Below the pieces are notes generated by a model. The model worked only from the letters and a program-made list of their open reading frames with translations, did not search any database and had not been told where the DNA came from. From the NCBI RefSeq assembly GCF_024372745.1, contig NZ_VOTZ01000016.1:1-57916 (forward strand): DNA of 57,916 bases, written 5' to 3'. Made by a program: the position numbers and the translations under genes. Origin of the DNA: Methanocalculus taiwanensis (GTDB lineage: Archaea > Halobacteriota > Methanomicrobia > Methanomicrobiales > Methanocorpusculaceae). Of this stretch, positions 24,693 to 34,200 are shown in pieces (within the stretch, counting starts at the first letter, position 1; each line of letters opens with the position of its first letter).

Positions 24693-25448
24693 TTATTTGT
24701 TTTTTACCAACGATGCAGCGAGCCGGAGGGCATTCCCGTAATTAACAGATGCGCGCGAAGTATCGACGAACGTTACATCGATATTTACGACAGGTGCGCC
24801 ATGTGATCCTCCCAAACCGAGAAGGACGAGTGTCCTGAAGATGAGATTGCCGGAGATACCATCCGGGGCAATCACGATACCGTACTTCCGGGCAGCGTCC
24901 TCAATCAGGATCTCTGAATGAACTCCTCCGGTAAGCCTTGCAAGCAGCTCTGCCTCTGCGAGGCTTCGATCGACATTCACATTTCTCCCGATATCTCCGA
25001 GACGGCCCCCCGAAAGGATTCCGATCGTTGTGTCGATCCCGATCCGTTCTGCGAGTTCCTGAGCATTCCTGGCAAGCTTCAATTTATCTCCGATGGTCCA
25101 CCCCTCATCAATTCCTACCGGAGTGAGCAGAAACTTCCTCTTCTTGGGTGTTTCGAGCACTGCAATCCGCTCAAGATGGTTGACTGAGGCAGCCTCACGG
25201 AGATACCTGAGTGTGGTTCCGGATGGAAGCGTCCCCCGGACCGCTCCGTCGATTGTTCCACTCAGAAGGGCGTCGATAAGCGCTTTTGCAGGATCTGGTG
25301 ATATGTGGTACTGGAGGCCATCGCCGGCACTCACATGTGTCCCATCCGGCGCATAGATTACGACGAAAATCTCGTCTGATACAGCTTCCCGGGCTGCCTC
25401 TACGACTTTGTTGATATCTTCAAAAGCCCCTATTCCGATTTTTCTCAT
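24693..25448 (-). CDS. mtxX: Methanogenesis marker protein 4 (MtxX family)
   Basis: 251 residues from the ATG at 25448, which overlaps the mmp2 stop by four bases. The fold is that of phosphate acetyl/butyryl transferases, with ILSGGRLGDIGRNVNVDRS mid-protein and VIAPDGISGNLIFRTLVLLG near residue 200. This is the family called methanogenesis marker 4, or MtxX after its link with methyltransferase genes; its reaction is not established. Coupling to mmp2 suggests a shared role in methanogens. Confidence 0.85.
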   Translation of the reverse strand: MRKIGIGAFEDINKVVEAAREAVSDEIFVVIYAPDGTHVSAGDGLQYHISPDPAKALIDALLSGTIDGAVRGTLPSGTTLRYLREAASVNHLERIAVLETPKKRKFLLTPVGIDEGWTIGDKLKLARNAQELAERIGIDTTIGILSGGRLGDIGRNVNVDRSLAEAELLARLTGGVHSEILIEDAARKYGIVIAPDGISGNLIFRTLVLLGLGGSHGAPVVNIDVTFVDTSRASVNYGNALRLAASLVKNK

Positions 25449-26449
25449 AATGACTGGCACCAGTCTCTGGATCCCAGAATTCCGTCAAGAGAGAAGTCAA
25501 AGACCTCTGAGCTATTTCCCTGATAGGTGATGGTGAGTTCTTTTGTTGTGTTGATGGTTCCGATGACCCGGGCTGCCATTCCTACATCACGAAACAGCCT
25601 GCATACCTCATCGACATGGTTCTGGTTCGCAGTCAGTATAAAGCCCATTCCGGGGTACATGCGTACCCAGTGTTCGAATGTAATCCCGTGTGCTGCAAGA
25701 TCCGGCATCGGTATTGCATGGAGATCAATGACCGCTCCCTTTCTGCTTACCTCAAGGAGCATCCCAAGGGTCCCGATGATGCCGGGATTCGATATATCCT
25801 TGGCTGAAGTAACAAGATGCCCCTCTCCAAGTGTTTTCATCACTTTTACCTGTGCTCTGAGGGTTGCTCCGTCTTTCATCGTAACAGAGTCCCAGTTCAT
25901 TGCACAGGATGGATGGACGCGCCCATTGAGGTCGATGGCCGCAATCACCGCATCGCCATCTTCTGCTCTGTCACTGTAAATGATCGAATCCAGGGTTGCA
26001 GATCCGAGAACCGCGACATCAATCACATTATATGGGGTATGTGGATGGAGATGCCCGCCGACGATCGGTACGCCAAAGCGGCTCGCTGCATCTGCCATTC
26101 CCCGTGTCACCTCATGCATCAGTTCCTCGTCAGTAAAGGAGAGGATATCAACAAGGGCGAGGGCATCACCTCCCATTGCAGCAATATCGTGAATGTTCAC
26201 GAGGACAGCGCAGAAACCCGACCAGTATGGATCTGCCTCCATCAGTTTGTTCCAGATACCATCTGCGGCAAGGAGGAGGGCATCATCTCCTTTACGGATG
26301 ACGGCTGCATCCTCACCAAACGATGCCACAACATCCGGAGAATCAAGATGTAGAGAGCGGATTATCTCGCCGATAGCATGTTTTCTGGTCACGCCCTCGT
26401 ATTCCCTCACCGCAGTTGCTACTGATTGACTGGAGCAGTTCTTCACCAC
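25445..26449 (-). CDS. Methanogenesis marker protein 2 (AIR synthase-like)
   Basis: About 334 residues of the PurM/HypE/ThiL superfamily: GEDAAVIRKGDDALLLAADGIW near residue 46 and VNIHDIAAMGGDALAL near residue 85 form the ATP and dimer motifs. This is the methanogen-only AIR synthase-related group (marker 2), reaction unknown. No ATG is near the 5' end. I chose the GTG at 26449, which has GGTG seven bases before it and lies about 25 bases from an AATATAG box; a TTG at 26473 is the longest option. Confidence 0.83.
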   Translation of the reverse strand: MVKNCSSQSVATAVREYEGVTRKHAIGEIIRSLHLDSPDVVASFGEDAAVIRKGDDALLLAADGIWNKLMEADPYWSGFCAVLVNIHDIAAMGGDALALVDILSFTDEELMHEVTRGMADAASRFGVPIVGGHLHPHTPYNVIDVAVLGSATLDSIIYSDRAEDGDAVIAAIDLNGRVHPSCAMNWDSVTMKDGATLRAQVKVMKTLGEGHLVTSAKDISNPGIIGTLGMLLEVSRKGAVIDLHAIPMPDLAAHGITFEHWVRMYPGMGFILTANQNHVDEVCRLFRDVGMAARVIGTINTTKELTITYQGNSSEVFDFSLDGILGSRDWCQSL

Positions 26450-28349: not shown

Positions 28350-28883
28350 ATGGGGATCGTAATCTATTGGGATTATCGATCTGTTGATGGCATTCAGCTT
28401 CCTGTGCAACGAATCATCTCGGCTGCCATCGGCTACCCCGTCGAGCTTATTCTTGGCGATCACTTCCCTGTTGAAGGATATCATCGTATACGGCGCCAAT
28501 ATGACGGAGGGCGAATCCTCAACCGGATCAGCCTTTTCAAGAGGATGCATGGATTAAATGATTTGTTACTGCTCGTCATTCCTGATGATATCTATGCTGA
28601 TTCATCTGATTTTGTCTTTGGGCTTGCCCGAGAATCAATTGGAAGTGCCGTTGTCTCGACAGCACGTCTCAGGAATGAATTTTATGGGCTTCCAGAGGAT
28701 ATTCATCAGATCATAGAGAGGACTGCCAAGGAAGGTGCTCATGAACTCGGCCATCTCATGGGCCTTCAGCATTGTTTAAAACCCGAATGTATCATGTACC
28801 GGCCGGAGAGTTTAAGCGAGCTTGATCGCAAGGAGAGGTATTTCTGCCCCGATTGCCGCTCTCAGCTTCCTCTCATGAGATGA
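28350..28883 (+). CDS. amzA: Archaemetzincin (zinc metalloprotease)
   Basis: 177 residues. The zinc-binding site HELGHLMGLQHC (HExxHxxGxxHC) is at about residues 131-142, and a structural zinc site follows with C-x4-C (ending LKPECIM) and CPDC near the C-terminus. The fold is the archaemetzincin branch of metzincins; peptidase activity is shown for some members, the physiological role is unknown. Confidence 0.93.
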   Translation: MGIVIYWDYRSVDGIQLPVQRIISAAIGYPVELILGDHFPVEGYHRIRRQYDGGRILNRISLFKRMHGLNDLLLLVIPDDIYADSSDFVFGLARESIGSAVVSTARLRNEFYGLPEDIHQIIERTAKEGAHELGHLMGLQHCLKPECIMYRPESLSELDRKERYFCPDCRSQLPLMR

Positions 28884-28968
28884 ACAAACCTCTATTGGTT
28901 AGAAATCCAAAGATTAATCTCTGAAAGAACGGATAATATACAGTTGTTCTGTTTATGAGGGTTGATTA

Positions 28969-29904
28969 TTGGTCGCTATGAAGGTTCCCTGGTATGCAAT
29001 ATGGGGATATGGTGCACATATCAAGTCGACACCGGGGCTGTTGTATGTACAGAAACGAGCCCAGCAGTCAAGCTACTCCATTGATGCGATAAATCATCTG
29101 CTGCTTGTTGGAGGGCATACTATACAGACTGCAACAATCAATCGTCTCCTTGAGAAGGGCGCGTCGATATCCTTTTTTGACGCCCATGGCACCCCTCTTG
29201 GGACACTCACGCCATTTGGGACAAGTAAGAATGAAGAGACATGGTGCCTTCAGACCTCTGCACCATCTCACCGGTATGTCCTGGAATTTGTTCGATCATC
29301 GATGAAATCCCGTCTTCTCTGGCTTGAAGAGCTTGATAAATCGCTCGAATCCGGCCTGTTTTATCGCGGGGAGCATGATGTCCTGGTGCAGTCCCAGAGT
29401 GAGATCGAGTATCTTGTCCGGATAGAAGAGATACGAAGGCTGCACACATTGACAACTGATATGTACTATGAGATCCTCTCGCGTATGCTTCCTTCAGCGC
29501 TAGATTATCGGAGAAGGACCCGGCGTCCCCATTTTGACCCGGTCAATTCAATGCTCTCATTTGGCTATGCCCTCCTCTTTGGTAATGCATGTGTTGCTAT
29601 CATCGGGGCACATCTAAACCCCGATCACGGTCTCCTGAACCAGGGGGCCGGAGGTCTGGTGTACGATATCATCGAGCCGCTGAAGAGAACAATGGTTGAC
29701 TCAACGGTATTTGAACTGGCAAGGGAGTCAATAACGAAAGCAGATTACGAGTTGAGCCAGACACGTTGTGTTCTTTCTGATGAACTCGTCTCCCGTCTTC
29801 TTGAGCGGTTGTATACCACAATCGATCAGAAGATAATCGATACAAATGTCTACGCATATCTTAATTCTCTTGAGAAAGGAAGGGAATTTTCGTATGTTTT
29901 TTGA
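28969..29904 (+). CDS. Stand-alone Cas1 family protein, metal-site His replaced
   Basis: 311 residues with the Cas1 layout: a beta-rich N-terminal domain (1-85, with LLLVGGHTIQTATINRLLEKG) and a helical domain (95-300). RRPHFDPVNSMLSFGYALL at 186-204 and VYDIIEPLKRTMVD at 231-244 are Cas1 signatures. Of the three metal ligands, a Glu is present near 153-154 and an acidic residue at Glu236, but the His of the usual GFLH is Asn224 (GLLN). No cas2, no other cas gene and no CRISPR array are in the window. The TTG at 28969 has GAGG eight bases upstream; ATG 28978 is the alternative. Confidence 0.85.
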   Translation: MVAMKVPWYAIWGYGAHIKSTPGLLYVQKRAQQSSYSIDAINHLLLVGGHTIQTATINRLLEKGASISFFDAHGTPLGTLTPFGTSKNEETWCLQTSAPSHRYVLEFVRSSMKSRLLWLEELDKSLESGLFYRGEHDVLVQSQSEIEYLVRIEEIRRLHTLTTDMYYEILSRMLPSALDYRRRTRRPHFDPVNSMLSFGYALLFGNACVAIIGAHLNPDHGLLNQGAGGLVYDIIEPLKRTMVDSTVFELARESITKADYELSQTRCVLSDELVSRLLERLYTTIDQKIIDTNVYAYLNSLEKGREFSYVF

Positions 29905-29935: not shown

Positions 29936-30214
29936 TTATAACAATGCTGTGCGTTTGATCGAAAAGTCGGGAAATTCAGTCAGAATATAGTTTTTCTCTT
30001 CGATATCCCTGATGATGGCTCGAGGGCAGCTATAGAGCATTGAGACGAATTTCTCGAGTATAACATCCTCTCCTGTGGCAAGCACATGCACCTTGCCGTC
30101 AGGGAGGTTCTCCACCTCCCCTGTGACGCCAAGGCTGGTTGCAATATGCCTTATACAGGCACGAAACCCGACTTTCTGTACTCTTCCTGTTATGATCAGT
30201 TCAATCGACTTCAT
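29936..30214 (-). CDS. acyP: Acylphosphatase
   Basis: 92 residues from ATG 30214 (a GTG four codons upstream is possible). ITGRVQKVGFRACIR near residue 7 holds the catalytic Arg in the phosphate loop, and GEVENLPDGKVHV the catalytic Asn. Hydrolyses acyl phosphates such as acetyl or carbamoyl phosphate. Convergent with the Cas1 gene. Confidence 0.92.
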   Translation of the reverse strand: MKSIELIITGRVQKVGFRACIRHIATSLGVTGEVENLPDGKVHVLATGEDVILEKFVSMLYSCPRAIIRDIEEKNYILTEFPDFSIKRTALL

Positions 30215-30307
30215 CCAACTGCTCACGATTGGTTCTGTATTCTTATTAGTATTTCATCGGAGAATTCAAAGCGGGTGGTCATCATGCAGGATGATTGAAT
30301 TCCGCCT

Positions 30308-32697: not shown

Positions 32698-34200
32698 CAT
32701 CAATTCGGTACCATTATTAAGTTACAAGAAAATGGCTCTATGTCGCGTGAATTCGACAAAGAATGTCAAATTGTTGAGAAAAGGGTGGAGGAGCTCTTCC
32801 CCTACCAAAGACTGCATGAACTTGCCCGGGAAACCGGGTTCTGTCAGAGGCTCAGGAAGATACACCCGGTCATCTTCCTTCAGGTGCTCATCTTCTCTGC
32901 TACTCTGCACAAACATCCGACAGTTGCAGAGATATGGAGGAGATATACCTATCTCACCGATTCGGACATTGCCTATTCGAGCTTTATTGCACGATTTGAA
33001 GACTTATCACTGAAATTCATGCAGAGAGTTTTGGATGACTGTATCCATTCACCGGTGAACGGCCTCTCTCTGGAGCTCCGAGAACGATACCGGAAGTTTG
33101 CCACAATCTTCATCCAGGATTCTTCAATTATCAGACTCCATGAGAAACTTGCAGAGAGATTTCCCGCCACCCGCGCCAAAAAGATAGCTGCCGGGATCAA
33201 GGTCAGTTATCTCCTCAATGTCCTCGCAAATAGTCCACAAACCGTCTCTCTTGTTCCTGAACGGACAGCTGAGATCAAGACACTTCGAATCGGTCCCTGG
33301 GTGAAAGGATCACTCCTGCTCATTGATCTGGGATTCTACTGTTATCACTCCTTCTCGAGAATAGACAAATATGGGGGTTATTTTGTGTCCAGAGTCAAGA
33401 AAGACAGCTGTCTCATTATCACACGATTTCACTCACCAGTCACTGCTGCACAACGGGAGATGTTCACCGGCAAGGATCTCAAACATGTCCTTAAAGTCCT
33501 CGGAGGAACCTCTGTTGATGCAACCGTAACCATCACGGTCAGAATGACCGATGGTTGTTCTCACAAGAAACGAAGTGTGCACCAGCAGTTTCGGTGTGTT
33601 GGCCGTGTCCATCCTGAAACGGGGAAATGGCATCTGTACCTGACAAATCTCTCCCATGAAGAGTTTTCAGTTTATGAGATAGCTACTCTGTATGGATTCA
33701 GATGGGAGATTGAATCACTTTTTGACGAGTCAAAGAACGAATGTATGCTCGGGGATGTTCGGGTCACCCGTGAGGGTGCCATCCTGATATTGGTCTGTGC
33801 AGCCCTGATCCGGCAACTCTTGTTGAAACGGATCTATCTGGTGATGAGGTCACTTATGACAGAGTGCCAGAGAGCAAGATTATCTTCGGATCTCTTTGGA
33901 AGAGCGTTTATCGAGCAGATAGGGTCACTCCTTGAGTTGGTTCTTGGATACTGGAATGATGACTGGTCTGACCGGGAGCTGGTGAAAGGATGGCAGAGAT
34001 ATGTTGACCGGCTCAGTCGACATTCCCAGCAGTACCATCCGGCACGATTGATGCGGGATAACGTTCTCTACCGGTAATCTGGATCAGTGCGGCGATCATC
34101 TGCTCTGCGGGTGGTGTTCGTTTGAGCGGATGCTTTCGGTCGTTTTATGGAAAAAATAGGTTAAAATAGCTTATTTTAGTGTTATAGTACCTAAATGATG
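32698..34200 (+). mobile_element. IS4-family insertion sequence, about 1.5 kb
   Basis: The element is bounded by imperfect 17-bp inverted repeats: CATCAATTCGGTACCAT at 32698-32714 and the reverse complement of CATCATTTAGGTACTAT at 34184-34200 (14 of 17 identical). Ends beginning CAT are usual for IS4 relatives such as IS231 and ISH8. One intact transposase gene fills most of it. No matching direct repeats flank the ends (GCCTTCGGCG on the left, TTTATGCGAG on the right), so the target duplication has decayed or one flank was rearranged. Confidence 0.8.
32740..34077 (+). CDS. IS4-family DDE transposase
   Basis: 445 residues, apparently intact. The catalytic residues are Asp127 (IFIQDSSIIRL), Asp196 (LLLIDLGFY) and Glu325 inside YGFRWEIESLFDESK, a perfect YREK signature of the IS4 family: Tyr318, Arg321, Glu325, Lys332 with spacings 2, 3 and 6. 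The long beta-strand insert between the second Asp and the Glu (about 200-315) is also typical. It cuts and joins the ends of its element. With no stop or frameshift the copy may still be active. Confidence 0.93.
   Translation: MSREFDKECQIVEKRVEELFPYQRLHELARETGFCQRLRKIHPVIFLQVLIFSATLHKHPTVAEIWRRYTYLTDSDIAYSSFIARFEDLSLKFMQRVLDDCIHSPVNGLSLELRERYRKFATIFIQDSSIIRLHEKLAERFPATRAKKIAAGIKVSYLLNVLANSPQTVSLVPERTAEIKTLRIGPWVKGSLLLIDLGFYCYHSFSRIDKYGGYFVSRVKKDSCLIITRFHSPVTAAQREMFTGKDLKHVLKVLGGTSVDATVTITVRMTDGCSHKKRSVHQQFRCVGRVHPETGKWHLYLTNLSHEEFSVYEIATLYGFRWEIESLFDESKNECMLGDVRVTREGAILILVCAALIRQLLLKRIYLVMRSLMTECQRARLSSDLFGRAFIEQIGSLLELVLGYWNDDWSDRELVKGWQRYVDRLSRHSQQYHPARLMRDNVLYR

Follow-up and report, generated by a model that had tools for sequence, protein, structure and literature searches.

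A catalytically incomplete Cas1-solo group 1 protein is retained across the Methanomicrobiales and is under strong purifying selection

The window analysed here, a 57.9-kb stretch of DNA from Methanocalculus taiwanensis, carries a gene for a Cas1-fold protein (the solo Cas1) between an archaemetzincin and an acylphosphatase gene. The locus comprises the following features.

28350..28883, + strand: archaemetzincin gene (Peptidase_M54), tandem upstream neighbour (Pfam; genus alignment)
28888..28968, + strand: upstream region conserved in Methanocalculus, with a CCAAAGATTAATC box and a GAGGG ribosome-binding site (alignment of eight species)
28969..29904, + strand: cas1-solo group 1 gene with TTG start, encoding a catalytically incomplete Cas1-fold protein of 311 aa (ORF, Pfam, structural model, tree and alignment)
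29443..29445, + strand: codon of His159, at the catalytic metal-ligand Glu position of other Cas1s (casposase E162; phmmer pairings, joint alignment and casposase numbering, coordinates counted from the ORF start)
29638..29640, + strand: codon of Asn224, at the ligand His position (casposase H232; joint alignment and casposase numbering)
29665..29676, + strand: codons 233–236, covering the acidic residues Asp233 and Glu236, both still present (casposase D244 and E247; joint alignment and casposase numbering)
29936..30226, − strand: acylphosphatase gene, convergent downstream neighbour (Pfam; locus comparison)

A sequence-only reading of the window had named the same two neighbours, and Pfam confirmed both. 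Acylphosphatase is the next gene downstream in 92 of the 95 loci that do not come from Methanocorpusculum, and the ends of the two genes often touch; as it is convergent, it is not co-transcribed with the solo gene. The upstream and farther genes vary between lineages. Gene order with the archaemetzincin gene amzA, which that reading had proposed to compare, is kept in the Methanocalculus/Methanocorpusculum family (30 of 31 loci) and not across the rest of the order. We found no conserved operon partner order-wide, the archaemetzincin tandem being limited to this one family. The GAGGG ribosome-binding site is located ~8 nt 5' of the TTG start, and both are largely kept across the genus alignment (eight species). 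The CCAAAGATTAATC box may be an archaeal BRE/TATA-type promoter.

The window holds no PolB gene and no repeats enclosing the gene, and we rejected a casposon at 28969–29904. No terminal repeats flank the gene, as the sequence-only reading had said; the only inverted pair detected, an imperfect one of 33 nt at 24.6/27.8 kb, leaves it outside. Three other features were seen in this neighbourhood or its equivalents. A DDE transposase ORF (PF01609; window 32740–34077, + strand) near DUF5806 marks an insertion sequence near the solo locus. At 24693–25460 (− strand), a 255-aa ORF flanked by a histone-like ORF on one side and an AIR-synthase-like gene on the other has relatives in the genus and no Pfam match. 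A conserved protein of ~1,190 residues, also without a Pfam match, is encoded beside acylphosphatase in numerous Methanomicrobiales (L119:5190–8792, − strand, and its equivalents in ~52 loci).

The product of 28969–29904 matches Pfam family PF01867 (Cas_Cas1) over residues 11–280 (E 2.5e-48) and scores 135 bits against NCBIfam TIGR00287, above the Cas1 equivalog cut-off. An AlphaFold2 model, for which ten natural orthologues served as input, reached a mean pLDDT of 84.9 and a pTM of 0.78. Its best structural matches were solved Cas1 proteins, headed by the Archaeoglobus fulgidus Cas1 (4n06, E 1.3e-18), with the Methanosarcina mazei casposase a close second (6opm, E 7.3e-16). The domain matches and the modelled structure show that the Cas1 fold is retained, in agreement with the full two-domain Cas1 layout proposed from the letters.

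We examined the metal site in a joint alignment of 120 solo orthologues and 46 CRISPR or casposase Cas1s and in three separate phmmer pairings of the solo protein with 4n06, 7mi4 and 7cr6. Casposase numbering was taken via a 404-residue casposase alignable with 6opm along its entire length. All three approaches agree in placing casposase E162, named as an active-site residue (PMC6977970), at His159. This column is Glu in 46 of 46 non-solo Cas1s. The ligand His, H232 in the casposase active site (PMC6977970), corresponds to Asn224, at a column that is likewise His in all 46. The sequence-only reading was therefore right about Asn224 and about the retained acidic Glu236 (casposase E247). Its other Glu, near 153–154, is in the wrong column: E153 and E154 lie 5–6 residues upstream of the catalytic Glu column, in columns that are unconserved in other Cas1s. 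Since this column is His159, two ligands are missing and not one. The alignments show that two of the four metal-site positions have been lost in the solo Cas1, Glu to His159 and His to Asn224. A stand-in role for His220, also tested, was rejected, as its column is among the most variable (47 changes across the 120 orthologues, 91st percentile of column changes).

The two losses differ in age. Position 159 is His in 58 of the 120 orthologues, Ser in 20, Phe in 19, Tyr in 11, Gln in 5 and Glu in 3; position 224 is His in 57, Tyr in 19, Arg in 16, Asn in 8 and other residues in the remainder. His occupies both positions in 28. On the tree of orthologues, presence or absence of Glu at 159 needs at least three changes and that of His at 224 at least 16. 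On the question posed by the sequence-only reading, Asn224 is not conserved among orthologues: within Methanocalculus (n=8) it occurs in six genomes, and because the other two still have His, we regard it as recent by sequence comparison and not fixed even inside the genus. The His-to-Asn change is thus not the key event that it had been taken for; the Glu loss is older and nearly universal. In total, Glu, His or both are missing from the metal site of 119 of the 120 orthologues. Only one (L062, genome G121) combines Glu159, His224, Asp233 and Glu236, and its complete site could be either ancestral-like or reverted. Two deep solo branches (L142 and L144, genomes G047 and G149) keep Glu159, have lost His224 and Glu236 and stand without an acylphosphatase neighbour.

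A tblastn-type search of 150 Methanomicrobiales genomes detected the solo gene in 148. The two apparent absences are a genome that is 62% complete (G050) and one (G057) whose contig ends about two bases past the syntenic neighbour, where the gene is expected, so we did not count the latter as a true loss. Named carriers are Methanocalculus, Methanoculleus and Methanoregula, and the Methanomicrobiales lineage was checked for two of these genera. In a survey of 393 genomes sampled across the phylum, the best match outside the order reached at most 103 bits, compared with ~217 bits or more for orthologues inside it. Some genomes, Methanospirillum-like ones among them, gave weak Cas1 matches that were considered as further solos; those inspected among L191–L196 proved to be type I-E CRISPR Cas1s. 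No solo copy was present in the viral contigs or phage records searched, and the plasmid search gave no close solo match, its matches being ordinary CRISPR Cas1s.

In a first tree of 52 solo orthologues, three casposases and 43 other Cas1s (one of which, L200, was later seen to be a casposase), the solos formed one clade apart from both CRISPR Cas1s and casposases (SH-aLRT 99). A second tree recovered 120 solo orthologues as monophyletic against eight outgroup sequences (SH-aLRT 100). Placing the protein in a Cas1 tree with casposases, as the sequence-only reading had suggested, assigned it to a distinct clade (SH-aLRT 99–100). The branching of the solo gene tree largely follows genera, which points to vertical descent. 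We propose that the chromosomal acquisition of this Cas1 predates the last common ancestor of the Methanomicrobiales, and that the protein dropped out of CRISPR adaptation as well as transposition and became domesticated.

Judged by the group's published description, the gene represents Cas1-solo group 1 in Methanocalculus; the group goes back to Makarova et al. (2013) as relayed by Krupovic et al. (2014; PMC4046053). The 2014 account sets group 1 aside as unlikely to be active and states that none of its members has the full site (PMC4046053); the group was later termed probably vestigial (PMC9755687). Restriction to the Methanomicrobiales, lack of signs of horizontal transfer, lack of a CRISPR link, an incomplete active site and a separate Cas1-tree clade are common to that description and to our data. 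We saw no difference in kind, and L062, with its full metal site, departs from what was stated in 2014. A search of the non-subscription literature found no functional study of group 1.

Casposases (Cas1-solo group 2, represented by M. mazei 6opm) share with the solo protein the Cas1 fold and the lack of Cas2, and the two can be aligned position by position. Unlike casposases, the solo lacks neighbouring PolB, HNH and HTH genes, carries no HTH extension at its C terminus and does not retain an intact E-H-E site, and it falls in a separate clade. Casposons do occur in the material that we surveyed. L200 (G016:C14:123000–130000) encodes a 415-aa casposase beside a PolB-like ORF and an HTH-like protein, and is a casposon inside the Methanomicrobiales, in a genome that also bears a solo Cas1. 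Outside the order, L237 (G157:C1:2694000–2708000) is a divergent casposon-like island on a long tree branch, with a Cas1 of 411 aa, a 947-aa PolB-like ORF and an HNH-like ORF.

Cas1 is the hallmark enzyme of immunity by CRISPR, and the solo protein has the fold in common with adaptation Cas1s, with ~26% identity to one CRISPR Cas1 of the order (L155). Unlike these, for example the type I-C Cas1 on contig C8 of its own genome, it has no adjacent Cas2 or array, its metal site is broken and it is acidic. The claim that cas2 and CRISPR arrays are lacking holds for the window, where neither was found next to the solo gene and a repeat search detected no long direct repeats; the genome has both elsewhere. 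Contig C8 carries a type I-C-like cas4-cas1-cas2 locus, separate from the solo gene, and the suggested check for arrays elsewhere revealed one there (32-nt repeat, at least 27 identical units). The sole Cas2 match of the genome is on a contig other than that of the solo gene. On INDEPENDENCE from CRISPR, the solo was the sole Cas1 match in 24 of 61 relatives, 7 of these 24 being 98–99% complete, and we therefore consider it independent of CRISPR. Together with the separate clade (SH-aLRT 99) and the conserved context, these findings support the original view of a CRISPR-independent, non-casposon Cas1 at a chromosomal site.

Comparison of the M. taiwanensis gene with its closest congeners gave a dN/dS of ~0.06 (dN 0.07, dS 1.2–1.3), and full-length open frames are present in nearly all genomes. 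These substitution rates show strong purifying selection at the sequence level. Parsimony over the 120 orthologues yielded a median of 22.5 changes per column; the old Glu column has 20 and the old His column 26, compared with two at Asp233. Nine columns did not change at all: W8, G48, E135, R157, Y166, E168, R172, D244 and R266. Solo Y166 and D244 are common to all Cas1s compared. R157 (usually Gly in other Cas1s), E168, R172 and R266 are invariant in solos without being conserved in other Cas1s, and H50, Y167 and C267 come close to this pattern. E135 also looks solo-specific, less securely than R157, E168, R172 and R266 because the alignment to other Cas1s is weak there. As an invariant residue set is kept while the metal site drifts, the best interpretation is that the solo is a pseudo-enzyme serving a different role and not a relic.

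The charge of the protein has also changed. The median pI is 6.2 for solos versus 8.9 for CRISPR Cas1s, the median net charges across the region common to both are −4.5 and +4, and the solo was the more acidic protein in 18 of 18 same-genome comparisons. The DNA-contact residues of the casposase have been described (PMC6977970). Two of them are kept in 88 of the 120 solos each, R192 as R186 and R250 as Lys239. R191, Y206, K238 and R280 are not conserved; R280 is weak evidence, as is W77, because neither position is conserved in CRISPR Cas1s either. Asp233 also persists as a DNA-related feature. R182 and R183 of the solo are kept in 117 and 119 of the 120 orthologues, respectively, and a local basic patch (R181–R183, R172, R157 and R266) is possible by sequence, the acidic net charge notwithstanding. 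We conclude that Cas1-like DNA binding has become less likely, since the charge is flipped and several casposase contacts are not kept. Of the earlier proposal of a domesticated, possibly non-catalytic DNA-binding protein, the first two parts are supported (119 of 120 sites incomplete) and the third is weakened.

Our preferred reading, to which we assign a probability of roughly 0.55, is that the gene encodes a domesticated Cas1-solo group 1 protein that serves as a non-catalytic scaffold or as a ligand or partner binder in a core cellular process. Catalysis would have been lost in the solo lineage while the Cas1 fold stayed, and strong constraint has shifted to residues that are unconserved in other Cas1s. 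Some of the new invariant residues probably line what used to be the active-site and DNA-end pocket, because R157 is two positions ahead of the old Glu and R266 three ahead of the position of casposase Arg280, which stacks on the DNA end (PMC6977970). The solo would then act by binding a partner protein or a ligand. We favour a scaffold or ligand binder over a nuclease, an integrase or a classical Cas1-type DNA binder because the basic charge and most of the DNA-end contacts are gone. More tentatively, the protein may no longer act on DNA at all, a new site formed by R157, E168, R172, R266 and further residues binding a partner protein or small ligand, and the solo itself having become a core component across the order.

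Non-catalytic DNA binding, in which a retained Cas1 surface recognizes branched or end-containing DNA and aids repair, replication or nucleoid organization, would account for the kept fold and for the conservation of R182/R183, K239, D190, N193, Y166 and D244. We consider it rather unlikely, as the net charge is now acidic, the target- and end-contact residues of the casposase are largely lost and no gene for replication or repair recurs as a regular neighbour of the solo across the compared loci.

A nuclease or integrase that is still active through a rebuilt metal site (e.g. His159/His224/Asp233/Asp or Glu236) is improbable. The 28 orthologues with His at both positions, the near-invariance of Asp233 and the canonical set of L062 fit such an enzyme; elsewhere, however, many combinations occur (Ser, Phe, Tyr or Gln at 159; Arg, Tyr, Asn or Ser at 224), both columns change at average rates and the M. 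taiwanensis protein itself is His159/Asn224. The integrase with an altered metal site put forward by the sequence-only reading is likewise disfavoured, because the orthologues do not conserve any other set of ligands there.

The active-looking type I-C cas4-cas1-cas2 locus and array in the same genome could suggest that the solo regulates or inhibits CRISPR adaptation by mixing with the cell's active Cas1. This is highly improbable, given that the solo persists in the 24 genomes without any other Cas1 match, shares so little identity with the one CRISPR Cas1 compared, and that the CRISPR Cas1s of the order fall in several unrelated branches. Descent of the solo as a mere vestige of an ancestral Cas1, the published view of group 1 (PMC9755687), would explain the unconserved catalytic residues and is scarcely credible, contradicted as it is by the selection data: the low dN/dS, full-length frames nearly everywhere, near-universal retention and nine zero-change columns.

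The contrast between drift and constraint, the charge flip, the invariant residue set and the near-universality are apparently additions to the published account in the non-subscription literature. The label 'vestigial' is at odds with the selection data, and the invariant residues and the charge flip provide specific test points for the function of Cas1-solo group 1. Since the solo scores above the NCBIfam Cas1 cut-off, Methanomicrobiales may be miscounted as having CRISPR adaptation genes. A near-universal, catalytically dead Cas1 outside CRISPR in an order of methanogens would show that the Cas1 fold has been exapted for a cellular job.
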